DNA from: Thiomicrorhabdus lithotrophica
GTDB taxonomy: Bacteria > Pseudomonadota > Gammaproteobacteria > Thiomicrospirales > Thiomicrospiraceae
Assembly: GCF_029201445.1 (NCBI RefSeq)
Contig: NZ_CP102381.1
Coordinates: 1,798,001 to 1,862,000, forward strand
Direction of reading: 5' to 3'
DNA: 64,000 bases
Positions 5,494 through 60,037 of the stretch are shown one piece after another; positions within the stretch are counted from its first letter, which is position 1; each line of letters starts with the position of its first letter. The notes under the pieces are model-generated. The model made no database searches and was not told the origin of the DNA. It saw nothing but the letters and a program-made list of their open reading frames with translations. The translations under genes and the position numbers were made by a program.

Positions 5494-5529
5494 AAACACA
5501 AAACGACCAGGCCTGGTCGTTTTGTGTTT
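5494..5529 (-). terminator. 36-bp perfect palindrome acting as terminator, built on ACCAGGCCTGGT
   Basis: The two 18-base arms are perfect reverse complements centred between 5511 and 5512, and the middle 12 bases are ACCAGGCCTGGT (core CCAGGCCTGG at 5507-5516). On the minus strand the hairpin lies 25 bases past the chemoreceptor stop and is followed by TTTTTGGGG. It therefore looks like that gene's intrinsic terminator. See the repeat-family finding. Confidence 0.8.
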
Positions 5530-5553
5530 AAGTTAATTCAATTCGTGAAATCA

Positions 5554-7584
5554 CTAGATTTTAAACTGATGAATCAATCCTTCTAATTTATCGGCTAAAT
5601 GTTGAAGGTTATTACCAGCTTGTTCTGTACTATTTGCACCTTGCGCCGCATTTTCAGTAACATCATGAATCTGAGATATATTTTGATTAATCTCTTGAGC
5701 CAACACGCTTTGAGTATGCGCAGCTTCAGACATCTGTTTACTCATCTGATTAATATCATCCATAAGAATAACGACAGGCTGAAGCATTTCTTTGGTTTTA
5801 GAAACCGCCTCACAACTCGCTTTAGTTGAATCTTGACCTGTCTCAACGACCTTAACAGTCGAAAGCGTTGCTTTACGAATTTTGTCGATAATTTTCTCAA
5901 TTTCAAGCGTAGATTCTTGTGTTCTATGTGCTAGTCCTCTAACCTCATCTGCAACCACAGCAAAGCCTCTACCGTGTTCTCCTGCTCGCGCCGCTTCAAT
6001 CGCCGCATTTAATGAAAGTAGATTAGTCTGCTCTGCAATTTCTCGAATTACATTGACCACCGTACCAATGGACTCACTATCTTCTCTAAGAAGCTGAACT
6101 GAAGCTGTCATATCGGCCATACCAAGAGAAAGTTTTTGAATTTGATTGGAGGTACTCACTACCATTTCACCACTTTCTTTAATACGTTCAGCGGCCTGCT
6201 GTGTCGCTCTTGAGGTGTTTTTAGAATGATCCTCAACACTTTTTGATTTTTCTGTCATATCAATCATGGTAGAGGACAAACCACCCGTAGCTGAAAGTTG
6301 TTGCTGAGCACCATCTTTTGCCTGGCGAGTAATCTCTAGTAAGTCTCTAGAAGAGGTTTCCAACTGCTCTACTGTTGAAGCAACTTGTGAAAGCATGGTG
6401 TGAATTTTACTAACGAAAGAGTTAAAGTGGCCAGCCAACTGCCCCATTTCATCTGAACTATTAACGGGTAATCTACGTGTTAAATCACCTTCACCTTCTG
6501 AGATATCCTTCAAAGCATCTGAAATTTCATTTATAGGTGACACAACTGCATTAGTCACTCTGTTAGATACCATCATTCCTAAGATTTGCCCGAAAGCTGA
6601 CACCAACAATAAAATAATAATACTGTTTAAACTAAGCTGTAATAAATCATCACTTATCTCTTCTACATCCCCAACGGCCAGATTTGAAATGTCGATCAAT
6701 TCTTTATCAAAGCTTTCAAATAAAGGTTGAATTTTGGTTGTCATCAACCAAACATCCATACGCCATTTTTCACCACCGTGAATGCCTTTCATCACCATAT
6801 AGTGTTCACGGTAATCCTCATATAGCGTCGTTAAAGTTCCAATCCCATCTTCTTCTTCAATGGTTAATTCAACCTCTGTTTGCTGATTTATTTTTTGAAT
6901 CAAAGATTCAAAACGATTCAAATAATTATCAGTCGCTTCAGCCATAGATTGATTTCTAAAACCAATGAAACCACGCAAACTACTGGTAACATTCAACCAA
7001 ACCTTTTGCAGTTCAAGCAAATCCACTAATAAAGCTTGTCGCTCTAATGAAAGCTCAGCCATCTCTGAATTAATCATTAAAGAAAGTGTTTGCTGAGTTT
7101 GAGTAGCCAAATTCAGCATATTATTGTTTACATATTCAAATGCAGGGAATTTTTTAGAACGATTTTCTTGAAAAACCTTCACCTCTTCTACAAGAGGTTG
7201 AAGTTGAATCATATGCTTTTCTAGCTGGCTATATTTTTTTAAAAGAACGGCAGAATCATCACCGTATTGTTTTAGGTTATTTTGCGCATCATCAATATTG
7301 GTTTTGACCTTTTCAATACTCGCTTGATAATTTTTTAGTAGCGCTGGATCATTTATCAAAATATACATGCTTAATGCATTCATGCTCTTCTCTAATAGAA
7401 AAGCCGATTCTTTTGCAGCGAGGGCAATAGGCTGATGCTGATAAACCATCTCTGATACGTTAGAACGCACAACAGATAAATTAATTGCCGCTTGAATCGT
7501 GATAAAGGCAAGAACTGCCCAAATCACACCAAATCCAAAGCGCATTTTTTGTTTGATTGTTAGCTTGCGTAACCAATCTTTCAT
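5554..7584 (-). CDS. Methyl-accepting chemotaxis protein
   Basis: A 676-residue transmembrane chemoreceptor. TM1 lies at about residues 15-35 ([19 protein letters not shown]). A long helical periplasmic sensor of about 290 residues follows, with no family I can name. TM2 is near residues 315-340 ([15 protein letters not shown]). A single HAMP with [13 protein letters not shown] leads into the cytoplasmic signalling hairpin [20 protein letters not shown]. The end [10 protein letters not shown] is usual for receptors without a CheR-docking pentapeptide. The length of the sensor suggests a double four-helix bundle (inference). It stands alone between lgt and the short-chain dehydrogenase, and ends in the palindromic terminator. 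Confidence 0.93.
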
Positions 7585-7685
7585 TTTACTTTCTGCTTTT
7601 TTGACATTTGGTTTAGCACTAGCAAATTAAATGCCATTAAACATTATGTTAAAAATATAAAACTTGATTAACATGAGAATATTTA

Positions 7686-10952: not shown

Positions 10953-12356
10953 TTAATCTACCAGGCCTGGTTGGTTAATTGTTTGCGCTATTGATTCTTT
11001 ATCAAAACTCGCGCGAGCTTGATGAACTAACTCTACAAATGATTCACCACGTTTTACATAGTTATCAAACTGATCAAAACTGGCACAAGCAGGTGAAAAT
11101 AACACACAGTCTTGCGGCTGAGCATTTTCTAGTGCGATAGCAACCGCAGACATTAAATCTTCTACTTGAGTGATAGCAATATGATCTAGAGTTTGTGCAT
11201 TAGAACGAATATCAGCTTCAATAACCGCTTTATCTCTACCAAACAACACCACCTGCCTACAGTGCTCAACCAAAGGGGAACCTAATCCTGAAAAATCAGC
11301 ATCCTTACCTACTCCACCAGCAATTAAAATCAACTTACCTGATATTTCATTACCCAAACTTTCAATTGCAGTGATAGTTGCACCTACGTTGGTTCCTTTA
11401 GAATCGTTAATCCAAGTAATATCATTGTGCACTGCAACTAATTCAGTACGGTGAGGCAACCCAACAAATTGGGTTAATGCGATTTCAAAGTGTCGATTCT
11501 CAACATTAAAAGGGCGACATAACGCGAGCATCGCTAATGCATTTAACTGGTGATGCAATCCTTTTAATTTCATGCACTCAACAGGAACTTGTGGTTGATT
11601 GCCATGACCTAACCAGGCCTGGTTATTGTATTGAATAATTCCGTAATCTTTATCGGATTTTATAAAGCCAGGCACAGCACTAAAATGAACAACTTCACCA
11701 TGATGAATTAAACCTTGCTCACCCAGAACATCGGGAATAACCGCTAATTCGGTTTCAGAAAACACTTTGGTTTTCGCCTGAATGTACTCCTCAATTCCTA
11801 TGTATCGATCCATATGGTCTTCTGATATGTTCAAAACCGTAGAAGAAGCAGGTGTTAAAGAGTAAGTTGTTTCAAGTTGAAAACTTGAAAGCTCGAGTAC
11901 AAACACATCATATTCATTGTCATCAATCAACAGATCAAGGGCCGGTTCACCAATATTACCGCCGACTCCTACTTTATAACCCGCTTCGGCTAGGGCCATT
12001 CCGGTAATAGTCGTGACTGTACTTTTACCATTTGAACCGGTTATGGCAATCACGGGTGCACCCACTGCTCGCGCAAAAAGTTCAATGTCGCCAATAACTT
12101 GCTTACCAATTTTTTCTAATGCTACTACCCAAGGTTCAGACTTCGCTATACCAGGGCTGAGGATAATCGTTTCAAACTGAGTAAGCCATTTGGTAGGCAC
12201 TTCGCCCACAGCAAACTCACAATCTAAATAGGCTTCTTGTAATGCCGTAGTATCAAAGTTGTCACGTGTATCAAAAGCTAAGCAATTCTCACCCTGAGCC
12301 GTTAAATAACGAAGAACAGATTGTCCCGTAACACCTAATCCCGCAACTAAATACAT
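10953..12356 (-). CDS. murD: UDP-N-acetylmuramoyl-L-alanine--D-glutamate ligase
   Basis: MurD adds D-Glu to UDP-MurNAc-L-Ala using ATP. The protein is 467 residues (E. coli 438) with the Mur-ligase P-loop ITGSNGKSTVTT, the catalytic region LELSSFQLE, INDSKGTN, and a C-terminal domain with LFSPACASFDQF. Two copies of the palindromic repeat lie in the gene: one reads Gln-Ala-Trp mid-protein, the other Pro-Gly-Leu-Val directly before the final Asp and stop. The second copy therefore forms the C-terminal tail. Confidence 0.96.
   Translation of the reverse strand: MYLVAGLGVTGQSVLRYLTAQGENCLAFDTRDNFDTTALQEAYLDCEFAVGEVPTKWLTQFETIILSPGIAKSEPWVVALEKIGKQVIGDIELFARAVGAPVIAITGSNGKSTVTTITGMALAEAGYKVGVGGNIGEPALDLLIDDNEYDVFVLELSSFQLETTYSLTPASSTVLNISEDHMDRYIGIEEYIQAKTKVFSETELAVIPDVLGEQGLIHHGEVVHFSAVPGFIKSDKDYGIIQYNNQAWLGHGNQPQVPVECMKLKGLHHQLNALAMLALCRPFNVENRHFEIALTQFVGLPHRTELVAVHNDITWINDSKGTNVGATITAIESLGNEISGKLILIAGGVGKDADFSGLGSPLVEHCRQVVLFGRDKAVIEADIRSNAQTLDHIAITQVEDLMSAVAIALENAQPQDCVLFSPACASFDQFDNYVKRGESFVELVHQARASFDKESIAQTINQPGLVD
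10960..10971. repeat. Palindromic repeat ACCAGGCCTGGT at 3' end of murD
   Basis: Read as CCA GGC CTG GTA, Pro-Gly-Leu-Val, two codons before the stop. Confidence 0.9.
11612..11623. repeat. Palindromic repeat ACCAGGCCTGGT in murD
   Basis: Read as AAC CAG GCC TGG TTA, Asn-Gln-Ala-Trp-Leu. Confidence 0.9.
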
Positions 12357-13550: not shown

Positions 13551-14966
13551 CTAACTGAACGTTTCTAAAATTTGTTGGCTAACAAGTTCCATCTGGGCAC
13601 TTCTTGAACCCTTAACCAAAACATTCATTTTTTGCTGCTTCTGCTCTGCTTTGCTCAGTTGTTTTAAAACGGTTTTTGCCATCTCTTCATGCGTTGTACA
13701 AAATTGACTGTTCTTACCAAACACTTCAGGCATTTGGCGTGCTTCTTCACCATAAACATAAAGGTGTTTAACGCCTTTATCTCGTGCAAACTCAGCAATT
13801 TCTTGGTGTGCTGAAGCCGAACCTTCTCCAATCTCTGCCATAGCACCTAAACACAAAACTGCCAGGCCTGGTAAAGAGACTAAAGCGTCAATTCCTGCTT
13901 TAACTGATTCTGGATTCGCATTATAACTGTCATCAATTAACCAACCGGTATTTATTGCGGTTTTTTGAAGCCTGCCAGACACCCCAGAAAAACTTACCAG
14001 GCCTGGTAAAATTTGTTGCCAATTTAAACCAGCTGCTTGAGATACGGCAACACAGGCTGCAGCATTCATTGCATTATGAAACCCTAACACAGGCAGACTC
14101 ACTAGATGCTTTTCATTCATTAAATTTAAGGAAAAGGTTATCCCTGAGCTTTCAGACTCCTGTACTTTAAAATCTGACACTCTAACCTGAGCTTCAGGTT
14201 GCGTACCAAAAGAAATAACCTGTTTTACACCTAATCCATCCAAACGGGATAACCAGTCTTGATAACCTGGTGAATCGGTATTAACGATTGCAACGCCCTC
14301 TTTACGACCCGCTATTTGATTTAATCCTTGATAGATTTCACCCTTAGTATCAATTACGCCTTGTAAGCTTCCAAAACCTTCCAAGTGTGCCCCTGATGCA
14401 TTATTTATCATGGCAATATCTGGTAGAGCTAAATCGGTTAAATAACCAATCTCTTTTAGGTGATTCGCTCCCATCTCAATAATGGCGTATTCGTGTTCAG
14501 GTCTTAAATTTAATAATGTTCTAGGCACACCAAGGTCATTATTTAAATTACCCTCAGTGGCTAGGGTATTACCCGCAAGTGAAAAGATATTATTAAGTAA
14601 AGTTTTTGTCGTTGTTTTACCGTTACTGCCCGTAACTGCAATCAAGGTTTTAACTGGCATTTGTAAACGATGCCAGCGTGCAAATTGCCCCAATGCGATG
14701 CGTGTATCCTCAACCTCAACACCTGGCACTACTGTATCCACATCCTCTGACACTAACACCGCTACTGCGCCTTGTTGAATTGCCTTATCTATAAAAGCGT
14801 GACCATCAAAGTTTTCGCCTTTTATGGCAATATACAAAGCACCAGGTTGCAATGTACGTGTATCAGTACTTATAGAGGTAAACTGTATGGTACTTTCTTC
14901 ACTAAGAGGTCCAATAAACTCACCATTAGTACTCTCTTTAAGTTGCTCTAATGTCCATGAGAACAT
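13551..14966 (-). CDS. murF: UDP-MurNAc-tripeptide--D-alanyl-D-alanine ligase
   Basis: MurF adds D-Ala-D-Ala to UDP-MurNAc-tripeptide. I chose the ATG at 14966 (471 residues) because AGAGG sits 8 bases upstream and the protein then begins MFSWTLEQL, as MurF proteins usually do. An ATG at 15083, overlapping the murE end, would add 39 residues of unconserved sequence. Motifs: P-loop AVTGSNGKTTTK, EMGANHLKEI, DDSYNANPESVKAG, and the C-terminal VLVKGSRSAQME. Two palindromic repeats encode Pro-Gly-Leu in the gene. Confidence 0.95.
   Translation of the reverse strand: MFSWTLEQLKESTNGEFIGPLSEESTIQFTSISTDTRTLQPGALYIAIKGENFDGHAFIDKAIQQGAVAVLVSEDVDTVVPGVEVEDTRIALGQFARWHRLQMPVKTLIAVTGSNGKTTTKTLLNNIFSLAGNTLATEGNLNNDLGVPRTLLNLRPEHEYAIIEMGANHLKEIGYLTDLALPDIAMINNASGAHLEGFGSLQGVIDTKGEIYQGLNQIAGRKEGVAIVNTDSPGYQDWLSRLDGLGVKQVISFGTQPEAQVRVSDFKVQESESSGITFSLNLMNEKHLVSLPVLGFHNAMNAAACVAVSQAAGLNWQQILPGLVSFSGVSGRLQKTAINTGWLIDDSYNANPESVKAGIDALVSLPGLAVLCLGAMAEIGEGSASAHQEIAEFARDKGVKHLYVYGEEARQMPEVFGKNSQFCTTHEEMAKTVLKQLSKAEQKQQKMNVLVKGSRSAQMELVSQQILETFS
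13862..13871. repeat. Palindromic repeat core CCAGGCCTGG in murF
   Basis: Read as TTA CCA GGC CTG GCA, Leu-Pro-Gly-Leu-Ala. Confidence 0.85.
13996..14007. repeat. Palindromic repeat ACCAGGCCTGGT in murF
   Basis: Inside TTACCAGGCCTGGTAA; read as Leu-Pro-Gly-Leu-Val, 135 bases from the copy at 13862. Confidence 0.9.
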
Positions 14967-15075: not shown

Positions 15076-16704
15076 TTAACCATGTTTTTTAGACTCTTTG
15101 GTTAGTAACCAATCTTGAACGACTTCCGCATCACTAAAAGGGTGTTTCACACCTGATATTTCTTGATAGTCTTCATGACCCTTGCCAGCAATAACGATAA
15201 TATCTTGTTCTTTAGCATGATCTAGAACTTGGCTAATGGCCTCTTTTCTATCAACCATACTCTGAACTGAATCGCTTTGGTTTATACCCGCTGCTATCTC
15301 TTTTATAATTTTCGCCGGCGCTTCATCTCTTGGATTATCACTGGTCAGTATCACTTTATCCGCTAGAGATTGGGCTATTGCGCCCATCAGAGGACGCTTA
15401 CCCTGATCGCGATTACCTCCACAACCAAAAACAACTTTTAGCGCTCCATTCCCATCAATAAGATGCGATCTTACCGCGGTTAACACCTGTTCTAATGCAT
15501 CTGGAGTATGTGCAAAATCTAGGATAATAGTGGGTGACTTGCCCAACACCTGCATACGTCCAGCGACGGACTGTAACAATGGTAATTTGGATTTTATTAC
15601 CTGCCATGAAAAACCATTCACCAATAAAATTGACATGGCGCACAATACATTTTCAAGATTAAACAATCCCATCAAAGCCAAGTTGATGATTTCTAAGTTG
15701 TCAGCTAATCGTTTATTATGAAAAACAGGTGTAAATTTGATACCTTGCTGGGTTAATTGCACATTATCACAACGTAAGTCAGGCAAAATTTTGTAATCTG
15801 CCGACAACGTTTTTTTAAGCTGTTCTGAGCTGTAACACCATACTGTCTCAGAATTGTTTTTCTGCAGTTTTTCATGACAAAGTTTGTTACCTAAAGCATC
15901 CGCGACATTTAATACCGAGCTTTGGGTTTCATATTCAGTAAATAAACGTGACTTTGCCTCACTATATGCTTCTTCAGTGCCGTGAAAGTCAATATGATCT
16001 CTAGTCACTTGCGTTAGTGCAACGGTCTGAAACGTTACCCCTTGAATACGACCCAAACATAAAGCGTGCGAAGAAACCTCCATCACAACCCAATCCATAC
16101 CTTGCTCAACAAATGCATTTAATAAACGCTGAACTTGAACACTATTTGGGGTAGTGTTAGCACTTTGTTGCAGGTTATCAATTTCGCCATTGCCTAAGGT
16201 GCCAATCAAGGCAACCTTATGGCCTAAATTTTTGAGTAACTGCCCTGTAAAAAAAGCGGTGGAAGTTTTACCGTTTGTGCCGGTAATCCCCACTACTTTT
16301 AACTTTTGACTGGGTCTGTCATAAAACCAAGCCGCAAAATTTCCCAACTGGCTTTGAATATCTGCCACCACCCACAATCTCACTTTTTGATTATGTGACT
16401 GGTTATGTGCATCTAACAATATTTGCTCTTGTTCCGTTAAAACTCTATCTGAAATTACCAGGCCTGGTAACTTAAGAAAAACTGATTCTAAAAAGTCTAA
16501 ACCATGGCTCTTTTCACCTTGTAACGCAATAAACAGGTCATTTGATTGAATTGCGCGCGAATCAAGTGACATCTGCTTAACAGTAACTTCTGGGTATTCA
16601 GCATCAACTTCACTCAAGTCAAACCCCTCTATAAAATTAGAGAGGTATTGGGAAATCTCTAATATGTTCTTGGGTTGTGCGCTTATTGGCTTCGCTGTAG
16701 TCAT
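15076..16704 (-). CDS. murE: UDP-MurNAc-L-Ala-D-Glu--meso-diaminopimelate ligase
   Basis: MurE adds the third stem-peptide residue. The DNPR motif (TSDNPRDE) near the C-terminus indicates meso-diaminopimelate as substrate, as expected for a Gram-negative. At 542 residues it is longer than E. coli MurE (495), with extra length at the N-terminus and in loops. Other motifs: P-loop GITGTNGKTSTA, SANTTPNS, the carbamylated-lysine region RDHIDFHGTEEAYSEAKSR, and FGCGGNRDQGKRPLMG. One palindromic repeat encodes Pro-Gly-Leu near residue 80. The ATG lies 9 bases beyond the ftsI stop. Confidence 0.97.
   Translation of the reverse strand: MTTAKPISAQPKNILEISQYLSNFIEGFDLSEVDAEYPEVTVKQMSLDSRAIQSNDLFIALQGEKSHGLDFLESVFLKLPGLVISDRVLTEQEQILLDAHNQSHNQKVRLWVVADIQSQLGNFAAWFYDRPSQKLKVVGITGTNGKTSTAFFTGQLLKNLGHKVALIGTLGNGEIDNLQQSANTTPNSVQVQRLLNAFVEQGMDWVVMEVSSHALCLGRIQGVTFQTVALTQVTRDHIDFHGTEEAYSEAKSRLFTEYETQSSVLNVADALGNKLCHEKLQKNNSETVWCYSSEQLKKTLSADYKILPDLRCDNVQLTQQGIKFTPVFHNKRLADNLEIINLALMGLFNLENVLCAMSILLVNGFSWQVIKSKLPLLQSVAGRMQVLGKSPTIILDFAHTPDALEQVLTAVRSHLIDGNGALKVVFGCGGNRDQGKRPLMGAIAQSLADKVILTSDNPRDEAPAKIIKEIAAGINQSDSVQSMVDRKEAISQVLDHAKEQDIIVIAGKGHEDYQEISGVKHPFSDAEVVQDWLLTKESKKHG
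16457..16468. repeat. Palindromic repeat ACCAGGCCTGGT in murE
   Basis: Inside TTACCAGGCCTGGTAA; read as Leu-Pro-Gly-Leu-Val. Confidence 0.9.
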
Positions 16705-21888: not shown

Positions 21889-22433
21889 CTGCACGAAACC
21901 GTAAATTCCATGTAATGACAACAACTTAGCGTTATTTCAGAATAAAAAAGAGCCAATCTTAAAAAATACAATCCCATTATATTTCAATAAGTTGCAAACA
22001 CTTGGCAAACTTATTTTTAACTTTTAACAACAAGGTTTTGTCTCTATTTTGGTAAAATTACATACAAAGCAGACACTTTCTAAAGCAATACATAGTGTGA
22101 ACAAGAAAACTACAGGCACCACATATAGTACCTTGAGATTTTTAATCTAAAGAAATTAAAAAAAGTGGGGAATTTTTACCTTTTTTTTAAGAAATGATAA
22201 AAAATTGGCAAATTGTGAAAGGATTGAGAAAAATTAAATTGTGGTAAAAATGAATCTATAATTCTTTAAATCGAATACATTTGTACCAATTTACCTCAAT
22301 AGACTTACCAGGCCTGGCTGTCTATTTTAAGAAAGTTAACTAGGGGTCAAACACCCACTCAATTAATCTGTAAATATTATTTTTTTGAATAAGTTAGCTT
22401 ATTTAGGGTTATATAATTTTTAATGGCTTAGCA
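21889..22433. other. 545-base AT-rich gene-free stretch upstream of the mraZ promoter
   Basis: No credible open reading frame or RNA gene is seen. On the plus strand it holds AGTGGGG (22164-22170) and GTGGTAAAAATG (22241-22252). The latter is an exact 12-base copy of the sequence at the mraZ start, which lies on the opposite strand. One copy of the palindromic repeat lies at 22308-22317. Long A and T runs may bend the DNA. Confidence 0.5.
22308..22317. repeat. Palindromic repeat core CCAGGCCTGG, intergenic
   Basis: Flanks TTA/CTG give a one-sided match to the longer consensus. It lies between the DUF2805 gene and mraZ. Confidence 0.85.
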
Positions 22434-23392: not shown

Positions 23393-23404
23393 ACCAGGCC
23401 TGGT
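23393..23404. repeat. Palindromic repeat ACCAGGCCTGGT, intergenic
   Basis: It lies inside the 16-base palindrome TTACCAGGCCTGGTAA, between rnpB and the dacB-like gene, about 40 bases past the latter's stop. It may also act as a short hairpin there. Confidence 0.9.
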
Positions 23405-23442: not shown

Positions 23443-24738
23443 TTAATAAGCTAATGCTAACTCTTTAGCGAATCTGTTTCTGAAACGGTATGGAACTTTT
23501 TGGTTAATCATCATTGCAAAAGGTAAAAAGCCTTGTTCATTTTTAATATAACCAGCTAACGTACTGACACCAATAAGAGTTCCTGATTTTGCAAAAACAC
23601 TGGCTTCTACTTCTGGAAGAAGCTTAATCCAAGGCTTAAAGGATTGTAAAACATCAATCAACTGCGATGGAGCAAGCCTATTATTGCGAGATAGTCCTGC
23701 TCCGTCTTCAATATAAAATGTTTGCCAGTTGAATTTTTCTGTTAGTAGTTTTTTATACACTAACTGCACTTTATCTTGAGAAGCTTGCCCACCTAACAAT
23801 TCCACACTCAAATTTAAGGCTAACTGATTGGCAATAAAATTTGTGGAATACTGCATCATTGGTTTCACCACTTCTGCTAATGTTCTGCTATTCAAATGTG
23901 TATATACAGGTGTAGCTGTATTATCCGTAGTGTTTTCTAGGGTTTTAAAGGTGACATTATTGGCAACTTCAATCCCTTGCTGTTTTAAAAATACACCTAA
24001 TAACTCAGCAAAATACCGTTGATTAAGCTGAGAATCAGTGCCTAAGTTAACTCGTTTGTATTTTCCAGATGGCTTAGATTTAAAGCTTGTGATAGTACGA
24101 GCGACGGCTAGTCCAGATTTAGTCATCGGAGTTTGCGGCTCTGCAGACAGAAGTCTTTTACCGCGTTTTAAAACATAAATACTATTAAAGTTAGCTGCAA
24201 TTGCTGATGGAATCGCATCATAAGGATTATCACTCAAACCCGTTCCTGGCATTACCAGGCCTGGTTGATAGTAACTCCCGTCAAGCTGAATAGTCTCTAT
24301 ATTCACAATACCTTGCTCTTCCAGCTTAGCTTTCAGACGCTTGGCAATCAGTATCAACTCCTCAGAAACTAAAAATGGATCACCATAACCCTTAACAATC
24401 AAAGTGGTTTCTTGAGCCGCATTTTGAGTCAGATAAAAATCAGTTTTAAAACGATGATTTTCACCCCAGTGTTGTAAGGCCAGATAGGCGGTAATTAATT
24501 TGGTGGTTGAGGCCGGTACATAAGCTTGTTGAGAGTTCTTTGATTCTAACGGGTGCTTATTAGAGTCCAGCAGCAAGAAGCCCGCTTGTTCTAACTTAGA
24601 GAAAAACTGCCAACTCGGACCACTTAACGTTACATTGGCGACATCAGCTTTTGCAGCCAATACCATACCTGAAACTGAAAGCAGCGCTGTACTGAATAGA
24701 ATTGATATAAAAAATACGACTTTAGTCACATTCGTCAC
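23443..24738 (-). CDS. dacB: D-alanyl-D-alanine carboxypeptidase/endopeptidase, PBP4 type (peptidase S13)
   Basis: A periplasmic penicillin-binding protein that trims or cleaves peptidoglycan stem peptides. An N-terminal signal peptide (about 1-29) precedes the active site Ser77 in PASTTK, the second motif YSTNFIAN, and the third KSGT (FAKSGTLIGVS). The protein is 431 residues, a bit shorter than E. coli PBP4 (477), so domain II is probably smaller. One palindromic repeat encodes Pro-Gly-Leu-Val. A TATAAT-like -10 box is seen on the minus strand at 24779-24774. Which of carboxypeptidase or endopeptidase activity dominates cannot be told. Confidence 0.92.
   Translation of the reverse strand: MTNVTKVVFFISILFSTALLSVSGMVLAAKADVANVTLSGPSWQFFSKLEQAGFLLLDSNKHPLESKNSQQAYVPASTTKLITAYLALQHWGENHRFKTDFYLTQNAAQETTLIVKGYGDPFLVSEELILIAKRLKAKLEEQGIVNIETIQLDGSYYQPGLVMPGTGLSDNPYDAIPSAIAANFNSIYVLKRGKRLLSAEPQTPMTKSGLAVARTITSFKSKPSGKYKRVNLGTDSQLNQRYFAELLGVFLKQQGIEVANNVTFKTLENTTDNTATPVYTHLNSRTLAEVVKPMMQYSTNFIANQLALNLSVELLGGQASQDKVQLVYKKLLTEKFNWQTFYIEDGAGLSRNNRLAPSQLIDVLQSFKPWIKLLPEVEASVFAKSGTLIGVSTLAGYIKNEQGFLPFAMMINQKVPYRFRNRFAKELALAY
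24254..24265. repeat. Palindromic repeat ACCAGGCCTGGT in dacB
   Basis: Read on the minus strand as CCA GGC CTG GTA, Pro-Gly-Leu-Val. Confidence 0.9.
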
Positions 24739-29617: not shown

Positions 29618-29629
29618 ACCAGGCCTGGT
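29618..29629. repeat. Palindromic repeat ACCAGGCCTGGT, intergenic
   Basis: Thirty bases after the yraN stop; flanked as TTACC..GGTTA. Confidence 0.9.
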
Positions 29630-29862: not shown

Positions 29863-29874
29863 ACCAGGCCTGGT
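29863..29874. repeat. Palindromic repeat ACCAGGCCTGGT, intergenic
   Basis: It lies 15 bases after the ppsA stop on the minus strand, inside AACCAGGCCTGGTT. Confidence 0.9.
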
Positions 29875-32433: not shown

Positions 32434-32443
32434 CCAGGCCTGG
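32434..32443. repeat. Palindromic repeat core CCAGGCCTGG, intergenic
   Basis: Upstream of ppsA; ends GGG instead of GGT. Confidence 0.85.
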
Positions 32444-33411: not shown

Positions 33412-33433
33412 ACTCTACCAGGCCTGGTAGAGT
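33412..33433. repeat. 22-bp perfect palindrome built on ACCAGGCCTGGT
   Basis: Arms of 11 bases (ACTCTACCAGG) centred between 33422 and 33423; the 12-base motif is at 33417-33428. It lies 35 bases past the methyltransferase stop on the minus strand. There it could form a hairpin, but the following sequence is not T-rich. Confidence 0.9.
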
Positions 33434-43607: not shown

Positions 43608-44561
43608 ATGATTCAAGAAAACTCCACATCTCAAACCTTAATCAACAATAATTCTCAGGTAAATCCTGATAATTACCTACAAGCTTCTTCTCAGCATTTT
43701 CATATTACTGGCCGGGGTAACAAAACAGCGTTAGATTTACTTGCTGAGCAAACTCCCCTAAGCAAGCAATTACTGAAAAAATACGCTCAAAAAGGTTCCG
43801 TGTGGATTCAACGTAATGCAGCTGATAATCAATCCAGTAAACCCGAGCGTTTACGACGATTAAAAAAAGTGGTAGCTGAACAAGATACATTGGATTTTTA
43901 CTACAATCCTCAATTACTCAATCAAGAGCCAGCCCCCCCAACCCTAGTGGCGGATTTTATAGATTATTCTGTGTGGATAAAACCGAGAGGAATGTTGTCT
44001 CAAGGCTCTAAATGGGCTGACCATACTGCGCTATACCGCTGGATTGAGATGAACTACCAGCCAAATGGGAAAATACGCCAGGCCTGGATAGTTCACCGCT
44101 TAGACAGAGCTACTCACGGCTTAATGTTAATAGCGCATAGCAAAAAAATCGCTGCGTCTTTAAGTCGTGCATTTGAAGAGAATCAAGTTCATAAAACTTA
44201 CCAGGCTTTGGTCTGGGGAAAATATCCTGACGAAACTCAAACCATTCAGATTCCTATTGATAAAAAACAGGCCATCAGTCATGTACGCCTTTTAAATTAT
44301 GACGCGGAACAAAATCGTTCATTAGTAGAAGTCGATATTGAAACTGGACGTAAACATCAAATTCGCCGCCATCTTTCAGAAACCGGCTATCCTATTATTG
44401 GCGATAGAATGTATGGTGTTTCAAAACTAGATGAGCAACTCGACCCAATGCCTGATCTGCAACTGACTGCCTACAAGCTCTGTTTGCCGTGCCCTATTAC
44501 CCAAACAGAGAAATGTTTTACTTTAAAAACTGAGCAACTTGATTTGTTATACCGAGAATGA
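43608..44561 (+). CDS. RluA-family rRNA/tRNA pseudouridine synthase
   Basis: A 317-residue pseudouridine synthase. The catalytic aspartate is in IVHRLDRATHGLMLIAHSK. Other family motifs are IKPRGMLSQG, NQVHKTYQALVWG, and TGRKHQIRRHLSETGYPIIG. The N-terminus TALDLLAEQTPLSKQLLKKY resembles a degenerate S4-like region. The target base cannot be assigned among RluA-type enzymes. No Shine-Dalgarno is seen. A TATACT -10-like box ends six bases before the ATG, so the message may be leaderless. It is followed after six bases by the HIRAN gene. Confidence 0.92.
   Translation: MIQENSTSQTLINNNSQVNPDNYLQASSQHFHITGRGNKTALDLLAEQTPLSKQLLKKYAQKGSVWIQRNAADNQSSKPERLRRLKKVVAEQDTLDFYYNPQLLNQEPAPPTLVADFIDYSVWIKPRGMLSQGSKWADHTALYRWIEMNYQPNGKIRQAWIVHRLDRATHGLMLIAHSKKIAASLSRAFEENQVHKTYQALVWGKYPDETQTIQIPIDKKQAISHVRLLNYDAEQNRSLVEVDIETGRKHQIRRHLSETGYPIIGDRMYGVSKLDEQLDPMPDLQLTAYKLCLPCPITQTEKCFTLKTEQLDLLYRE
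44078..44087. repeat. Palindromic repeat core CCAGGCCTGG in RluA-family gene
   Basis: Read as CGC CAG GCC TGG ATA, Arg-Gln-Ala-Trp-Ile, just before the catalytic HRLD motif. Confidence 0.85.
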
Positions 44562-44567: not shown

Positions 44568-45026
44568 ATGAAAAGACGCATTCAATTTCCTGTTAAAGGC
44601 TCTTTTTACTATTCGGCAGATATGGCGATGGACTTGTCGTTGCTTCATCCTGATGAACCGCTCAAATTCCAACTGGAACCCGATAATATTTATGATCAAA
44701 ATGCGGTGCAAATTTGGTTACCTAAAAGTGTTCAGGCTTGCTTCGAAGTTAATGACAGTAATGAAGATGCCGTTATCTCGCATGGATTGCTTCTAGGCTA
44801 TGTACCTAGAACTCTAGCGCCCAAAATAACCTTTTATATTCGACACCAAGATTCTCTTGAAGTAACTGTTAGACGTTGCGCAAGGCTTGGCAAACAGATT
44901 GAGATTGATTGCCAAGTAACGATTAACCAGGCCTGGTTACATTATTTAAACTTGATGATTCACGCCACAATCGTGACTCAGTTACATCGTTTAAAACGTT
45001 TTAAACAGAGGTTATTTTTTAAATAA
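44568..45026 (+). CDS. Stand-alone HIRAN domain protein
   Basis: A 152-residue protein whose body matches the HIRAN domain, a DNA-end-binding module known from eukaryotic Rad5/HLTF helicases and present alone in many bacteria. Signature: VKGSFYYSADMAMDL near the start, then FQLEPDNIYDQNAVQIWL and LLGYVPRTLAP. In bacteria the role is unproven; a link to stalled-fork or damaged-DNA sensing is inferred from the family. Coupled with the RluA-family gene. One palindromic repeat encodes Asn-Gln-Ala-Trp-Leu. Confidence 0.85.
   Translation: MKRRIQFPVKGSFYYSADMAMDLSLLHPDEPLKFQLEPDNIYDQNAVQIWLPKSVQACFEVNDSNEDAVISHGLLLGYVPRTLAPKITFYIRHQDSLEVTVRRCARLGKQIEIDCQVTINQAWLHYLNLMIHATIVTQLHRLKRFKQRLFFK
44926..44937. 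repeat. Palindromic repeat ACCAGGCCTGGT in HIRAN gene
   Basis: Part of TAACCAGGCCTGGTTA; read as AAC CAG GCC TGG TTA. Confidence 0.9.
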
Positions 45027-46943: not shown

Positions 46944-46954
46944 CCAGGCCTGGT
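46943..46954. repeat. Palindromic repeat ACCAGGCCTGGT at a stop codon
   Basis: The extended palindrome TAACCAGGCCTGGTTA (46941-46956) begins with the TAA stop of the preceding gene. Confidence 0.9.
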
Positions 46955-47317: not shown

Positions 47318-49063
47318 CTAATCTTTTACCTCAAAAACCTTAGAAACCCCTTCGCCTCTGTTATCAGATGCGGCTTGCCAACCTGATTGAGTTTTTAGAA
47401 TAAGCTGTACATCACCCATATAGTCATTCTTTTTAAGGGTGTACCCCATAACCTCTAACTCTTCTTTTACCAGGCCTGGTAGTTCTGGGTTATACGCTAT
47501 TTGGTCTTTGGGTAGAAGTTGATGATGCACTCTTGGTGCATCTACCGCTTGTTGAGCCGTCATTCCTTCTTCAACCACATTCACTATAGTCTGAAAGACT
47601 GAGGTAATAATGGTTGAACCACCAGGTGTACCAACAACCATCTCTACTTCATCATCTTTTAATACAATCGTCGGAGACATAGAAGAAAGCATACGTTTTT
47701 CTGGTGCAATCGCATTGGCGGTTCCACCTACCACCCCAAACACATTCGCTACTCCAGGCTTAGTACTGAAATCATCCATCTCATCATTCATTAAAAAACC
47801 CGCTCCCTCAATCACCACTCCACTCCCAAACGGCATATTAAGCGTGTAGGTATTTGAGACCGCATTACCATGACCGTCTACGATCGAAAAATGGGTAGTT
47901 TCAGGGCTTTCAATCTTGCCTGGTTTCATCGTTTCAGATTCTGATATTTCATCGAACAGAACCGTTTTAATTCGGGTCGCTAAATAACTGTCCGAGATAA
48001 GCTGTTTTATAGGCACGTCAATGAAATCGGAATCACCTAAATAGTGCGCTCTATCTGCGTAAACACGCTTTTCTAGTTCCGCATAAAAGTGGGTTTTAAT
48101 GGTTTGTTCTGACAGGCCTGCTTTCTTACCCTGTAAAAGAGCTTGATTCAACTTATCTGCAAGCTGTTCCTTCATCTTTAACAGTTGCACAATGGCAATA
48201 CCGCCAGAACTTGGAGGCGGTGCTGACACGACTGTTCGACCTTTCCACATACCTACCACCGGCTCTCGCCACACAGCTTGGTATTTTGCTAAGTCTTCTA
48301 AGGTAATTAGGCCGTCATGCTTTTGCATTTGCTTAACTAATAACTTTGCTGTTTGACCTTGATAAAAGTCTTTTGCGCCTAAATTAGCGATACGTGTCAG
48401 GGTCTGCGCGAGTTCAGGCTGTTTAAACACCTTTCCAGTTTTTAGACTACTGAAATAATCTTTAAAATTCAGTGGCGTTGGCGATTTATTCGCAATCCAC
48501 TCTTGAAACCATTTGGCGCGACTAGCAATCTGTGGTGAAACCTTAAAACCTTGTTTAGCAAGTTTTATAGCAGGCTGAAGAAGTTGTTGCCATGACAATG
48601 AGCCAAAGCGTTGATGAGCTTGCCAAAACCCCATCACAGTCCCCGGAACACCTGATGCCTGGTAACCAACCAAAGATTTATATGGGATGACTTGTTTGTT
48701 ATTGTCTAGGTACATATCTTGGGTCGCAGCTAATGGCGCTTTTTCACGATAATCTAAAAAATGTACGGCTAAAGTATCCGCTTCATAAGTTTGCAATGTT
48801 GGTGCGTATAAAGTCATAAAACCACCACCCCCAAGATTGCCCGCTTCAGGATAAGTAACAGCCAACACAAACGCCGATGCTACGGCTGCATCAACCGCAT
48901 TACCACCTTGTTGCAAAATTTGAGCGGCAACTTCAGCGCTATATTTATCAGGCATTGCAACGGCTGCAGTTTTAGGATCTATTGCCCAACTTGCATTGAC
49001 TGAAAACAGGCTAATACTAAATAGAAATACAGCGAATGTTTTTTGAATTTTTAATTTATACAT
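47318..49063 (-). CDS. ggt: Gamma-glutamyltransferase / glutathione hydrolase
   Basis: A periplasmic enzyme that hydrolyses glutathione or transfers its gamma-glutamyl group. The 581-residue precursor has a signal peptide (AVFLFSISLFSVNASWA) and self-cleaves before a conserved Thr, here in the block ETTHFSIVDGHGNAVSNT. Other motifs: GNAVDAAVASAFVLAVTYPEAGNLGGGGF, PPPSSGGIA, MNDEMDDFST and VVGTPGGSTIITSV. I use the ATG at 49063; a TTG six bases earlier is weaker. One palindromic repeat encodes Pro-Gly-Leu-Val. Confidence 0.95.
   Translation of the reverse strand: MYKLKIQKTFAVFLFSISLFSVNASWAIDPKTAAVAMPDKYSAEVAAQILQQGGNAVDAAVASAFVLAVTYPEAGNLGGGGFMTLYAPTLQTYEADTLAVHFLDYREKAPLAATQDMYLDNNKQVIPYKSLVGYQASGVPGTVMGFWQAHQRFGSLSWQQLLQPAIKLAKQGFKVSPQIASRAKWFQEWIANKSPTPLNFKDYFSSLKTGKVFKQPELAQTLTRIANLGAKDFYQGQTAKLLVKQMQKHDGLITLEDLAKYQAVWREPVVGMWKGRTVVSAPPPSSGGIAIVQLLKMKEQLADKLNQALLQGKKAGLSEQTIKTHFYAELEKRVYADRAHYLGDSDFIDVPIKQLISDSYLATRIKTVLFDEISESETMKPGKIESPETTHFSIVDGHGNAVSNTYTLNMPFGSGVVIEGAGFLMNDEMDDFSTKPGVANVFGVVGGTANAIAPEKRMLSSMSPTIVLKDDEVEMVVGTPGGSTIITSVFQTIVNVVEEGMTAQQAVDAPRVHHQLLPKDQIAYNPELPGLVKEELEVMGYTLKKNDYMGDVQLILKTQSGWQAASDNRGEGVSKVFEVKD
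47469..47480. repeat. Palindromic repeat ACCAGGCCTGGT in ggt
   Basis: Read as CTA CCA GGC CTG GTA, Leu-Pro-Gly-Leu-Val. Confidence 0.9.
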
Positions 49064-52902: not shown

Positions 52903-52927
52903 ACTTTTATCAGTAGTTAAAGCAATA

Positions 52928-52965
52928 AAAAACCCGACTTACCAGGCCTGGTAAGTCGGGTTTTT
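52928..52965. terminator. 38-bp perfect palindrome as bidirectional terminator, built on ACCAGGCCTGGT
   Basis: Two 19-base arms (AAAAACCCGACTTACCAGG and its complement) are centred between 52946 and 52947. The 12-base motif occupies 52941-52952. It lies between converging genes (DUF3392 and ppiC) and ends in A/T runs on both sides, so it can stop both transcripts. Confidence 0.85.
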
Positions 52966-52982
52966 AATATAAATGCCGTTTC

Positions 52983-54542: not shown

Positions 54543-54557
54543 TGGTTTGTATCCAGA

Positions 54558-55601: not shown

Positions 55602-55679
55602 TTGCCAAAGAATTAAAGATGAACAACAACCCATTATTCCTTACGAATAATAAGAACTAGAACGTATCAACTTTAGATT

Positions 55680-56855: not shown

Positions 56856-56935
56856 TAGACCTTGGTTTGATTTGAAGCCTCTTTAGTTCAAATCAATTTA
56901 AACGTGTAATCCAAGTTAACGTCTAGGAATGCTTC

Positions 56936-57964
56936 ATGCAAACGCTCTGTTCGGTTCCTGCAAAACTTATCCTTTCTGGCGAACATGCCGTTATTTATGA
57001 CTGCCCAGCCCTGAGCATGGCGGTTAAACTCTACACCCAAGTTGAATGTGGTTTCAAACCGAGCACGACACGTAGCGTAACCATTGAATTAACTGACTTT
57101 AAACAAAAGCACTGTTTTCCAAATAGAGTCTGGCAAAACATAGCGATGGGAATCGAAAGTCGTTACCAACTGTTTCTTAGCAACAATGTCGCAATTCAAA
57201 GCGTTCTTAGTCAACCTGTTGATTTGATTATCGCTACGCTTCACCACTTTGACCATTTTCATAACCTGAAACCAGGTGAATGGACCTTTAAGATTGACTC
57301 AGAAGTCCCAATTGGGCGAGGACTAGGTAGCTCTGCTGCAGTTATCATAGGATTATTAAGCAATCTTATTCACCACCATGATCTCGATATTAACAATGAG
57401 ACTTTACTGGCTTTGGCTCGAAAAATAGAGTCCCGCCAACATGGACAATCTAGTGGTATTGATCCAGCTACGATTATTTATGGTGGATTACTTGAGTTTC
57501 ATGCAAAGCACACAACCAAACAACACAAGCCTCATGAATTTAAAGGTTGGTTAATCGACACAGGGTCGCCAGAGAGCACAACCGGGCAAGCCGTCGCTCA
57601 TGTTAGTCAACATTTCTCTAAAGATAAAGAGATTTGGAAACAGTTCGAAAATACCACTCAAGAAATCATCCAGGCCTGGTCACATCAAAACACCCCAGCA
57701 CTCTATAAAGGGATTCGCCAGAACCAAGCGTTGCTTGAAAAAATAGGCGTTGTGCCTGATGAAGTAAAAACATTTGTTAAACAACTATCAATGGATTATC
57801 AAGCTGTTGCAAAAGTATGTGGTTCAGGCAGTACCAAAGGCAATCATGCGGGCATATTACTTTGTTTTTCAGAACAAGAGCCTACAACGTTATGCGCTAA
57901 ATATGGCTATAGTTGCCAAGCTATTAGCGTTGCACACCAGGGGGCTTTATGTCAGATCCTCTAA
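56936..57964 (+). CDS. mvk: Mevalonate kinase (GHMP family)
   Basis: It phosphorylates mevalonate. GHMP motifs: the N-terminal PAKLILSGEHAVIYDCPALS, the ATP-binding PIGRGLGSSAAVIIG, the catalytic-Asp loop HGQSSGIDPATIIYGGLLEF, and the C-terminal KVCGSGSTKGNHAGI. The GIDPAT loop is typical of mevalonate kinases, so I assign it here and the next gene as phosphomevalonate kinase. AGGA lies eight bases before the ATG. One palindromic repeat encodes Ile-Gln-Ala-Trp. Its last 16 bases overlap the next gene. Confidence 0.88.
   Translation: MQTLCSVPAKLILSGEHAVIYDCPALSMAVKLYTQVECGFKPSTTRSVTIELTDFKQKHCFPNRVWQNIAMGIESRYQLFLSNNVAIQSVLSQPVDLIIATLHHFDHFHNLKPGEWTFKIDSEVPIGRGLGSSAAVIIGLLSNLIHHHDLDINNETLLALARKIESRQHGQSSGIDPATIIYGGLLEFHAKHTTKQHKPHEFKGWLIDTGSPESTTGQAVAHVSQHFSKDKEIWKQFENTTQEIIQAWSHQNTPALYKGIRQNQALLEKIGVVPDEVKTFVKQLSMDYQAVAKVCGSGSTKGNHAGILLCFSEQEPTTLCAKYGYSCQAISVAHQGALCQIL
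57670..57679. repeat. Palindromic repeat core CCAGGCCTGG in mevalonate kinase gene
   Basis: Read as ATC CAG GCC TGG TCA, Ile-Gln-Ala-Trp-Ser. Confidence 0.85.
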
Positions 57965-58935
57965 ATTTCAGCCAAATGTGGCGAAGTGTTGCTCCTGCAA
58001 ACACCATGATTTTAGGTGAGCATAGCGTAGTATACGGACAGCCAGCCCTTGCCTGCGCTCTAGATCAATTTGTGACCATACATTGGCAAATTCGCAAAGA
58101 TTCAGCTATTAACATCTATTCAGCGTTGGGTGAACACCATACCCAGCTAGACAAAATCACTTCACACCCAAAACTTACTTTTGTTATTGCAGCTTTGCAG
58201 GCATTTCAAAACCATTTAACTTGTGGATTAGATATTCAGGTTGAAAGTGAATTTTCCTCGACCATTGGTCTAGGAAGCTCTGCCGCCGTTTTGGCCGCAA
58301 TGCTTTCAGGATTAAATACAATCTGCAAAACAGACTACAAGTTAATCCAACTGTTTGAGATTGGACACAGAGTAATTATTGACCTACAGGGTAGAGGCTC
58401 TGGTACGGACTTGGCGGCCAGCTTATCTGGCGGAACCATCTTCTTTCAACCAAAAACCGATTTACAGCCGATATCTAGTATTCATAAACTGAATATTCAA
58501 CTCCCTTTAGTGTTAATTTACGCGGGTTATAAAACCCCGACTTCAGACGTACTAAAACAAGTAGCTATTGCCTGGCAAGATAAACCCAATGAACTTGAAA
58601 TGCTCTACCGTTCAATGGCACAAGTAACAAAGCAAGCTTTCCAAGCCTTACAAAATCAGCAGCTTGAAACGTTTTACCAGGCCTGTAGTGACTATCAAAT
58701 ACTTATGGATAGACTCGGCGTAAATGATAAAAACATCCAAAAAATCATTGATGCTTTAATCCAATGTGAAAGTATTCACTGCGCAAAAATTTCAGGTTCA
58801 GGTTTAGGAGATTGTGTGCTTGGTATAGGCAACCTTGATAATTGTAATTCTCAAGCACTATCAGAATTAGCCGCTTACCAGTCGATTGCAATAAAAGTCA
58901 GCAATGCTGGCGCTCAGACTGAAAGCACAGAATAA
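57949..58935 (+). CDS. Probable phosphomevalonate kinase (GHMP family)
   Basis: A second GHMP kinase of 328 residues. Motifs: APANTMILGEHSVVYGQPAL, the ATP-loop STIGLGSSAAVLAA, the RGSGTDLAASLSGG loop, and KISGSGLGDCVLGI. The GSGxDLAAS loop fits phosphomevalonate kinase better than mevalonate kinase, and the pathway needs that enzyme between mevalonate kinase and the decarboxylase. The two kinases are related, so their roles could in principle be swapped. Start overlaps the preceding gene by 16 bases, implying coupling. Confidence 0.75.
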   Translation: MSDPLNFSQMWRSVAPANTMILGEHSVVYGQPALACALDQFVTIHWQIRKDSAINIYSALGEHHTQLDKITSHPKLTFVIAALQAFQNHLTCGLDIQVESEFSSTIGLGSSAAVLAAMLSGLNTICKTDYKLIQLFEIGHRVIIDLQGRGSGTDLAASLSGGTIFFQPKTDLQPISSIHKLNIQLPLVLIYAGYKTPTSDVLKQVAIAWQDKPNELEMLYRSMAQVTKQAFQALQNQQLETFYQACSDYQILMDRLGVNDKNIQKIIDALIQCESIHCAKISGSGLGDCVLGIGNLDNCNSQALSELAAYQSIAIKVSNAGAQTESTE

Positions 58936-59008
58936 TCAAACTTTAGAATAACCAAACATCAAACTAAACATGAATAGAATAAAAGCGTTTTTATCGATAG
59001 GATAATCC

Positions 59009-60037
59009 ATGTCTAAACAGTTACAACAACAATTTGTCCACCAGGTTATTGGTCATAAACCAGAACATAATCGTCTCAACGCTTCTAAATCAGTGGGAAA
59101 AGGTTCAGCTCCCGTTAATATTGCCTTAAGTAAATATTGGGGTAAAAGAGATACGATTCTAAATTTACCAACCAATGGCAGTGCCTCAATTAGCCTACCA
59201 GGCCTGGGAACGGAAACTCAAGTCAAGATAATTTCGGCAACTAAGAACCATCAAGATAAAGTTTCTTTAAACGGCGAGCTCCTTGAAGCGGAGGCCCCCT
59301 TCGCAAAACGTGTTTCAAATTTTTTAAACTACTTTAGAGGCAATTCACATACGCTATTTGAAGTCACTACCTGTAACAGTGTACCTACTGCTGCTGGTCT
59401 CGCCTCCTCTGCTTCTGGGTATGCTGCTTTAGTGTTAGCTTTAGATGATTTGTTTGAATGGAACCTGGCTGATAAAGAACTCTCTTTACTGGCTCGTTTA
59501 GGAAGTGGAAGTGCTAGCCGATCACTATTCCCAGGTTTTTCAGTATGGCATCAAGGTACACAAACGGATGGACTTGATAGTTATGCCGAAGCGATTGAAA
59601 CCCAATGGCCAGAGTTTTGTATTGGTTTACTCGAAATAGATGTTAAACAAAAACCGGTTAGCTCAACTCAGGGCATGCAAAATACGGTAGAAACTTGCGC
59701 ACTCTACCAGGCCTGGCCAGAACAAGCTAATAGAGACCTGCAAACAATATTAAATGCTATTGAAGAGAAGAACTTTTCGACGCTTGGAAAGACCGCTGAA
59801 CATAACGCTTTAACAATGCATGCGACGATGATTGCAACCTGGCCTCCGATTGTCTATTGGCAGCCAGAATCCGTTGAAGCGATGCATAAGGTTTGGCAGT
59901 TACGCGAACAAGGTGTGGAGGTCTATTTCACTATGGATGCAGGTCCAAACTTAAAGTTACTGTTTTTACAAACAGAAAAGCCTGCGATTAAGCAGGCTTT
60001 TAAAGACGTAAAAATTCTAGAACCGTTTAAGCATTAA
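59009..60037 (+). CDS. mvaD: Diphosphomevalonate decarboxylase
   Basis: It converts mevalonate diphosphate to isopentenyl diphosphate with ATP. The 342-residue GHMP-fold enzyme has SAPVNIALSKYWGKRD near residue 33, SASGYAALVLA with the phosphate loop TAAGLASSASGY, GSGSASRSLFPGFSVW carrying the catalytic Arg/Asp region, and TMDAGPNLKLLF at the C-terminus. Two palindromic repeats lie in the gene. A terminator-like hairpin lies within its last codons (59976-60001). It closes the pathway cluster. Confidence 0.95.
   Translation: MSKQLQQQFVHQVIGHKPEHNRLNASKSVGKGSAPVNIALSKYWGKRDTILNLPTNGSASISLPGLGTETQVKIISATKNHQDKVSLNGELLEAEAPFAKRVSNFLNYFRGNSHTLFEVTTCNSVPTAAGLASSASGYAALVLALDDLFEWNLADKELSLLARLGSGSASRSLFPGFSVWHQGTQTDGLDSYAEAIETQWPEFCIGLLEIDVKQKPVSSTQGMQNTVETCALYQAWPEQANRDLQTILNAIEEKNFSTLGKTAEHNALTMHATMIATWPPIVYWQPESVEAMHKVWQLREQGVEVYFTMDAGPNLKLLFLQTEKPAIKQAFKDVKILEPFKH
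59208..59217. repeat. Palindromic repeat core CCAGGCCTGG in mvaD
   Basis: Read as CTA CCA GGC CTG GGA, Leu-Pro-Gly-Leu-Gly. Confidence 0.85.
59707..59716. repeat. Palindromic repeat core CCAGGCCTGG in mvaD
   Basis: Read as TAC CAG GCC TGG CCA, Tyr-Gln-Ala-Trp-Pro. Confidence 0.85.
59976..60001. terminator. Terminator-like hairpin inside the 3' end of mvaD
   Basis: AAAAGCCTGC and GCAGGCTTTT form a perfect 10-bp stem with a 6-base loop. It ends 36 bases before the mvaD stop. On the minus strand it lies about 60 bases past the sspB stop, so it may be the sspA-sspB terminator overlapping mvaD. Confidence 0.6.

Follow-up and report, generated by a model that had tools for sequence, protein, structure and literature searches.

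Described systems of iterated motifs

DNA uptake sequences are described as known from the Neisseriaceae and the Pasteurellaceae alone (PMC12616744), and as non-palindromic and without bias downstream of coding sequences (PMC1939737). In the Neisseriaceae the uptake sequence (DUS; consensus ATGCCGTCTGAA, PMC5031613) occurs as several dialects within one family that share an inner core, with about 1900 copies in Neisseria and five genomes without an obvious DUS (PMC3630211), and its receptor ComP is known. The Pasteurellaceae have two types of uptake sequence (USS; PMC12616744), with the core AAGTGCGGT or ACAAGCGGT; these are not palindromic, and the corresponding uptake preference is proven. 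The many dispersed USS copies combine a strong core with AT-rich segments beside it, their forms differ by subclade and the sites are described as arising by mutation and not by copying (PMC1626085). Co-evolution with the dialect has been reported for the protein ComN (PMC12616744). In cyanobacteria HIP1 is a highly iterated GC-rich palindrome for which other palindromes substitute in some relatives, and both HIP1 and these alternate HIPs accompany a matching methyltransferase (PMC4390886).

Copies of the motif in the window

In the 64-kb window the palindrome CCAGGCCTGG is present in 26 exact copies, compared with a mean of 0.03 in dinucleotide shuffles, none of 100 of which reached 26. Our recount agrees with the first-pass annotation in this number, in the 18 of 26 copies that correspond to the 12-mer ACCAGGCCTGGT and in the nine that are intergenic (outside ORFs of at least 120 aa). 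Its coordinates are correct for 25 of the 26 copies, the start placed at 59208 being at 59198. It had counted about ten one-mismatch copies where there are 12, overlooking those at 17759 and 27950, and the one assigned to 62718 starts at 62717. From the genome mean 13.5 copies would be expected, so that the density in the window is roughly double that of the genome.

Several intergenic copies are situated closely behind a gene. The copy at 5507..5516 lies 37 bp past a stop codon and within the longer palindrome ACAAAACGACCAGGCCTGGTCGTTTTGT, those at 23394..23403 and 33418..33427 lie 39 and 41 bp past a stop codon, respectively, and two are found between convergent genes, 30 bp (29619..29628) and 16 bp (29864..29873) past a stop codon. 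The copy at 22308..22317 is located in the spacer that separates ORF 21364-21831 from the RNase P RNA, those at 32434..32443 and 46944..46953 are likewise intergenic, and 52942..52951 forms the centre of a terminator-like structure, an almost perfect palindrome of 44 bp (52925-52968) accompanied by a T-run.

Within genes, the copy at 10961..10970 is at the stop-codon end of ORF 10953-12356 (murD-like, named by reading), which also contains 11613..11622, a position at which arctica, WV30_bin5, NP51 and chilensis have the core CAGGCCTG as well. The murF-like ORF 13551-15083 harbours 13862..13871 and 13997..14006, the latter having AACAGGCCGGGT at the orthologous position in T. cannonii, and ORF 15076-16704 (murE-like, named by reading) harbours 16458..16467. 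Single copies are present in ORFs 23443-24738 (24255..24264), 43608-44561 (44078..44087), 44568-45026 (44927..44936), 47318-49069 (47470..47479) and 56936-57964 (57670..57679), and two in ORF 59009-60037 (59198..59207 and 59707..59716). The ORF of a UvrD-type helicase (34238-37870) contains 35338..35347, 35705..35714 and 37430..37439, and that of a PD-(D/E)XK nuclease (37870-40728) contains 39451..39460 and 40372..40381.

The helicase and nuclease ORFs are in an AddAB-like arrangement, and with a density near one per 5 kb the motif could be a Chi-like recombination hotspot for this window-encoded nuclease. Chi is short, polar and read as a single strand, which the motif does not match: its consensus spans about 20 bp, the form in this genome is palindromic and the directional forms of relatives use both strands inside single loci. 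We regard a Chi-like function as highly improbable.

Abundance in the genome and the family

The 2.516-Mb genome contains 531 copies of CCAGGCCTGG (one per 4.7 kb) and none of the reversed-pattern control, so that the initial description as highly iterated is appropriate and the enrichment is not confined to the window. In a 464-kb sample consisting of the window and 20 evenly placed 20-kb stretches, 109 copies were found where an order-3 Markov model predicts 0.37; in a list of the 12 10-bp palindromes with the highest enrichment, none of the others exceeds eight copies. DUS and USS are dispersed in hundreds to thousands of copies, many more than chance would give, and the motif shares this feature, at a lower density than the DUS of Neisseria. 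The first 100 sites are spaced almost at random (CV 1.11). Three long gaps without the motif, within the first 0.5 Mb, are occupied by the rpo/ribosomal protein cluster, by repetitive ORFs and by ordinary genes containing near-matches (names by reading), and an interpretation as foreign DNA was therefore rejected.

Among 62 genomes of the family, from seven genera, 31 contain 409-1173 copies of CAGGCCTG. Outside the family, CCAGGCCTGG reaches at most 46 copies in 365 genomes of the class. No motif was detected in samples of 60-118 kb from G005, G008, G009, G010, G022, G030 and G031 or of 40 kb from G020 and G048. Weak dialects could escape such samples, which come from a part of the low-count genomes (g2, G045 and G047 are among those outside them). 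Genomes without an obvious motif are a likeness to the Neisseriaceae.

Placement relative to genes

Although ORFs cover 89% of the bases in the 464-kb sample, 57 of the 109 sites lie outside them, and 63% of these 57 are at most 60 bp after a stop codon, compared with 33% of control positions. A non-coding excess is also a property of DUS and USS; it is weak in the g6 genomes sampled (6/43). The concentration just after stop codons differs from what PMC1939737 describes for published uptake sequences.

This excess, together with the stem and T-run structures formed by some copies, is what would be expected of intrinsic terminators or REP-like extragenic repeats. However, the other 52 of the 109 sites are within ORFs, with flanks much like those of the non-coding sites, and conservation fades over the roughly 7 bp next to the 10-bp core. 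The motif is therefore not a mobile repeat, and it does not show the combination of extragenic location, greater length and conserved flanks of REP or MITE elements. It is extremely doubtful that the copies are terminators or REP-like repeats, and any use as terminators looks secondary.

Consensus and dialects

The fuller consensus is approximately AAnTTACCAGGCCTGGTAAnTT, both inside genes and in intergenic DNA. The extent that was annotated initially is too short, as the consensus reaches further, to a preference for A roughly a helical turn away from the centre (about 9.5-12.5 bp) in the genus of the source bacterium, Thiomicrorhabdus, and in g3. Because both directions enter the profile of a palindromic core, such profiles are symmetric by construction; the sides were then scored separately. 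The A preference is present in 0.31-0.58 of sides in the palindromic sets, against a background of 0.10 in the source genome, and the two sides are independent (both in 23, one in 63 and neither in 89 of 175 own sites). The g6 genomes that were sampled do not have it (3/86 sides, under background).

Six or more forms of the motif exist in the family, including AACAGGCCGGGT, TACCGGCCGGTA, AAAATCTGCCAGGYTGGG and AAAAATCGCCAGGGGTGGT, the last of these taken from a single locus. They follow a common plan with a CAGG or CCGG core, CAGG being present in all forms found except that of G007 (CCGG). Dialects of related species thus share an inner core, as in the Neisseriaceae but with an unrelated sequence, and as in the Pasteurellaceae a strong core is flanked by AT-rich segments and the forms differ between relatives, although more forms occur here than the two USS types and the cores are unrelated. 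The two CCWGG sites and the AGGCCT to which the first-pass annotation drew attention are not an essential part, because AACAGGCCGGGT and TACCGGCCGGTA are without them.

Unlike known DUS and USS, the motif is palindromic here and in several relatives; it is non-palindromic in G003, T. cannonii, G038, G039, G044 and S010_36, some of the non-palindromic dialects being about 18-20 bp long. The one-sided AACAGGCCGGGT dialect is specific, with 33 copies in 156 kb in which AACAGGCCTGTT and ACCCGGCCGGGT do not occur at all. CCAGGYTGGG has 331 copies in G038, 371 in G039 and 403 in G044, where its reversed control has 1, 4 and 3, respectively, compared with 4-15 in the other nine genomes searched. Both AACAGGCCGGGT and AAAATCTGCCAGGYTGGG use both strands. 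Directional forms are found on both strands also within single loci (13, 12, 11, 33 and 15 sites in five genomes), and over whole genomes the strands divide 143/188, 169/202 and 196/207 in G038, G039 and G044, respectively.

Conservation and rewriting of sites

Conservation in orthologous genes, which had been proposed as a check, is evident: 22 of 33 orthologous sites are kept (about 2.5 expected), as are six of seven (0.5 expected) in a second comparison. Of 32 sites, none is kept by relatives without the motif (1.7 expected). In two relatives whose dialect is AACAGGCCGGGT, this form occupies the same positions in 17 of 43 cases (10/27 and 7/16; about 0.6 expected) and in neither is there an unchanged site of the form found here, so that sites have been switched in place between these two dialects. 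A strict in-place switch to the G007 form was seen at none of ten sites.

Conservation at orthologous positions, dyad symmetry with a flank preference, and a non-coding bias with an excess after stop codons could also be explained by a DNA-binding protein, regulatory or chromosome-organising, in co-evolution with the motif, and the absence of sites in motif-less relatives would likewise follow if any binding protein were lost. Yet within one genus relatives differ in hundreds of sites at once, about half of the sites in the source genome are within genes, some dialects are one-sided and none was found in several relatives. The SlmA, Noc and MatP systems have fewer and better conserved sites than the motif. 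On balance, a binding protein of this kind is unlikely.

Methyltransferases

A palindrome with a GGCC centre, as in HIP1 and the alternate HIPs (PMC4390886), in a genome with two PF00145 genes is consistent with a HIP1-like element, where a DNA methyltransferase would mark the palindrome and methyl-directed repair would ratchet the copies up. High iteration, GC-richness and replacement by other palindromes in some relatives are further likenesses. However, a link to methyltransferases was rejected: neither PF00145 (32 genomes) nor PF01555 (62 genomes) tracks the motif, in contrast to the matching enzymes of HIP1, and six of the 14 motif-rich genomes of the genus (G002, G004, G006, G026, G028, which is 86% complete, and G029) contain neither family, the search comprising these two families. 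An origin of the HIP/methylase type is therefore very unlikely. The two PF00145 genes adjoin integrase-like or mobilisation-like ORFs (names by reading), and the two stretches around them, 28 kb, contain four sites, none of them between the methyltransferase and the integrase-like ORF. The analogy with HIP1 and methylation drawn in the first-pass annotation fits poorly also in that some sister forms are non-palindromic and about 18-20 bp long.

Probable uptake role and competence genes

By analogy with DUS and USS, the motif is probably (we estimate about 0.7) a DNA-uptake-sequence-like self tag of the family Thiomicrospiraceae; among the roles suggested at the outset, that of an uptake signal fits. 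We judge it to be a putative third, partly palindromic system of the DUS/USS kind. It also seems fairly probable that this is a third family with its own self-specific uptake code, the words of which would switch between species of one genus, with sites rewritten in place, one-sided and palindromic forms interchanging and a receptor reading the palindrome from either side.

Whereas for USS the uptake preference is proven, here we infer sequence-biased uptake, a receptor and a drive from the genomes. Within the pilus/ComEC competence machinery, a DNA receptor at the cell surface would prefer motif-bearing fragments. Copies would arise by point mutation, and would be spread and kept by molecular drive because incoming fragments are enriched in the motif and recombine into the chromosome. 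If the preference of the receptor shifts, existing sites would be rewritten in place, giving rise to dialects. The preferred core of this genome, ACCAGGCCTGGT, being a palindrome, could be read in either direction, while in some relatives the core is one-sided.

The source genome has a ComEC/Rec2 match over the cut-off and a pilus of the MSHA type (MshE/MshL). Type IV pilus and ComEC genes are thus present as in the known systems but do not discriminate, as ComEC is matched in all 31 motif-rich genomes and also in 25 of 31 lower-count genomes and hence does not predict the motif. An identification as pilB was rejected, as no genome exceeds the cut-off of that model and the gene in the source genome is of the MSHA type. 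In contrast to the Neisseriaceae, ComP_DUS (PF16732) is over the cut-off in none of the 62 family genomes, G031 having one sub-threshold match. GspH/FimT-type pilins were discarded as receptor, PF12019 being found in three of 62 genomes, all low-count (G020, G022 and G031). In 14 genomes, the two small prepilins of a single prepilin gene cluster were compared; they are 29-37% and 39-65% identical to the proteins of the source genome and not consistently closer within a dialect, so that no receptor candidate is named. We found no paper with uptake data for these bacteria.

If the uptake reading is correct, DNA self-recognition in transformation would extend to a third family, one of environmental bacteria, with six or more forms and an unrelated core. 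Tests could then address how a receptor can adopt a new word and not leave the genome stranded, whether the sites persist through drive or through benefit, and which protein the receptor is. The right tag could also offer a transformation route for chemoautotrophs; the source bacterium is probably a sulfur-oxidiser.

As a separate observation, TTACCAGGCCTGGTAA is present in four viral contigs.

Abundance and consensus of the palindrome

The window contains 26 exact copies of the 10 bp palindrome CCAGGCCTGG, the number already given in the first-pass annotation. One-mismatch copies are also present as claimed there, but number 12 rather than about ten. Enrichment holds across the genome: the whole sequence (a single contig of 2,516,205 bases) carries 531 copies of CCAGGCCTGG and none of the reversed control. 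In a 464 kb genome sample 109 copies are found against 0.37 expected from an order-3 Markov model, and the 12-mer extension ACCAGGCCTGGT occurs 89 times against 0.05 expected from the same model. Over 108 sites, the consensus extends beyond the core with A at position -1 (0.90), T at -2 and -3 (0.60 and 0.63) and A at -5 and -6 (0.60 and 0.62). The other side shows the mirror image because the palindrome is counted in both directions. One-mismatch variants of ACCAGGCCTGGT number 48 at the two outer positions versus 8 at the four inner ones.

An A-tract, called by a simple rule of three A in four bases, lies ∼9.5–12.5 bp from the motif centre, near one helical turn. It is present on 31% of sides in this genome (background 10%), on 34–58% in the other palindromic sets of the genus and of g3, another genus of the family, and on 3% in genus g6. 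The two sides behave independently, with 23 of 175 sites in this genome carrying both tracts, 63 one and 89 neither. Genic and non-ORF sites alike show the tract in every set of the genus and g3 for which each class had at least six sites. The non-coding excess in g6 is weak (6 of 43 sites in a 100 kb sample), and together with the low A-tract share this counts against full uniformity.

Genomic placement

ORFs of at least 80 amino acids cover 89% of bases, and 57 of 109 sites in this genome fall outside them. Of these 57, 63% lie at most 60 bp after a stop codon, compared with 33% of control positions. Among the genic sites, 51 of 52 use two of the three reading frames. Close inverted motif pairs sometimes form a hairpin with a T-run, and one window copy is the centre of a 44 bp near-palindrome.

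RNase P RNA (RF00010) is located at 22940–23319 (-) of the window, in an ORF-free stretch between ORFs 21364–21831 and 23443–24738. At 34238–40728 (-), a UvrD-type helicase ORF adjoins a PD-(D/E)XK nuclease ORF, a pair that is AddAB-like by arrangement and contains five motif copies. The ORF run at 53478–60037 resembles a mevalonate pathway, with names assigned from reading the translations. Elsewhere in the genome, repetitive ORFs span ∼24 kb (locus L222 1817 to L223 7126), and this stretch is motif-free.

Distribution and dialects

CCAGGCCTGG reaches at least 100 copies in ten of the 32 genomes of the genus, with 0–44 in the remaining 22. Outside the family, none of the 365 genomes examined from the same class has more than 46. 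The inner 8-mer CAGGCCTG exceeds 400 copies in 31 of 62 family genomes (14/32 in the genus, 7/11 in g3, 9/9 in g6 and 1/1 in g7) and in no genome of g2, g4 or g5.

Some genomes without the palindrome carry a sister form. Genome G003 and T. cannonii use the one-sided AACAGGCCGGGT (33 copies in 156 kb, where symmetric 12-mers number 0 and 0), and its A-tract is restricted to one side. G007 uses TACCGGCCGGTA; G004, G026 and G027 use CAGGCCTG with looser outer bases; G038 uses AAAATCTGCCAGGCTGGG; G039 and G044 use AAAATCTGCCAGGTTGGG. In G036 and G046 CCAGGCCTGG is flanked by A-tracts. A MAG labelled Hydrogenovibrio S010_36 has AAAAATCGCCAGGGGTGGT, its core occurring four times in the single 21 kb locus sampled. 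Directional forms are found on both strands in five genomes. CCAGGYTGGG totals 331, 371 and 403 copies in G038, G039 and G044, split by strand as 143/188, 169/202 and 196/207, a mild imbalance in G038; nine further genomes searched have 4–15 copies.

Four motif-free loci from Thiomicrorhabdus-type MAGs (L009, L011, L015 and L117) contain many G runs of length at least 8, possibly phase-variable tracts or another repeat system. In 40 kb samples of two g3 genomes (L200; L206 or L207), short repeats occur in 18–34 copies and are perhaps repetitive genes.

Conservation and switching in place

Sites were compared in ungapped alignments, with expectations for unchanged sites derived from mean identity. 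Between the cell-division region of the window and five same-dialect loci, 22 of 33 sites are unchanged (2.5 expected), as are six of seven in the pilin region (0.5 expected). Control 8-mers rich in GC show 5–16% conservation. Going from the same-dialect loci to T. cannonii, the one-sided form stands at 10 of 27 sites (0.35 expected), and in G003 at 7 of 16 (0.26 expected); no palindrome is unchanged at the aligned sites of either. A switch to the G007 form is seen at 0 of 10 sites under strict ungapped alignment and at 2 of 13 when gaps and a one-base shift are allowed. Five motif-less genomes retain 0 of 32 sites (1.7 expected). None of these counts is made up of independent comparisons, as individual sites are scored again in more than one relative.

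In a midpoint-rooted tree of 14 genomes built from two proteins (6 of 11 inner branches well supported), the palindrome appears on two branches, the one-sided form is nested within the CAGGCCTG group and G007 groups with the five motif-less genomes.

Comparison with uptake sequences

The motif behaves like the DNA uptake sequence (DUS) of Neisseriaceae and the uptake signal sequence (USS) of Pasteurellaceae: its copies are scattered, occur on both strands and favour non-coding DNA, its form differs by dialect and is exchanged at existing sites, and its occurrence does not follow either of the two methyltransferase families tested. Bakkali (PMC1939737) describes DUS and USS as originating gradually by point mutation, enriched in non-coding DNA, unbiased in orientation and inverted repeats in ∼10% of cases. 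They are also described there as non-palindromic and not favouring positions downstream of genes; in contrast to that account, the present motif is palindromic and biased to such positions. Within a literature coverage that leaves out most subscription journals and bioRxiv preprints, nothing was found on an uptake sequence in Thiomicrospira/Hydrogenovibrio, on natural transformation in Thiomicrorhabdus or on the 12-mer, and a broader search was likewise negative. Among the matches listed for the CCAGGCCTGG string, the titles concern other subjects.

Competence machinery

ComEC/Rec2 is encoded in this genome, with a match of 330 bits against a cut-off of 190, as are two pilus secretins of the MSHA type. 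ComEC is found in 56 of 62 family genomes, including all 31 motif-rich ones and 25 of the 31 others. ComP_DUS, the neisserial receptor family, gives no match over cut-off in these 62 genomes. Among the small prepilins that were compared, none tracks the dialects. Larger prepilin-type ORFs are present at L180 8143–12894 and in the same region of 13 relatives. Their identity to those of this genome is 35–55% in G001, G007, G009 and G012 and 27–37% in the other relatives, and does not agree with dialect across the 13; cassette exchange is a possible origin of this pattern.
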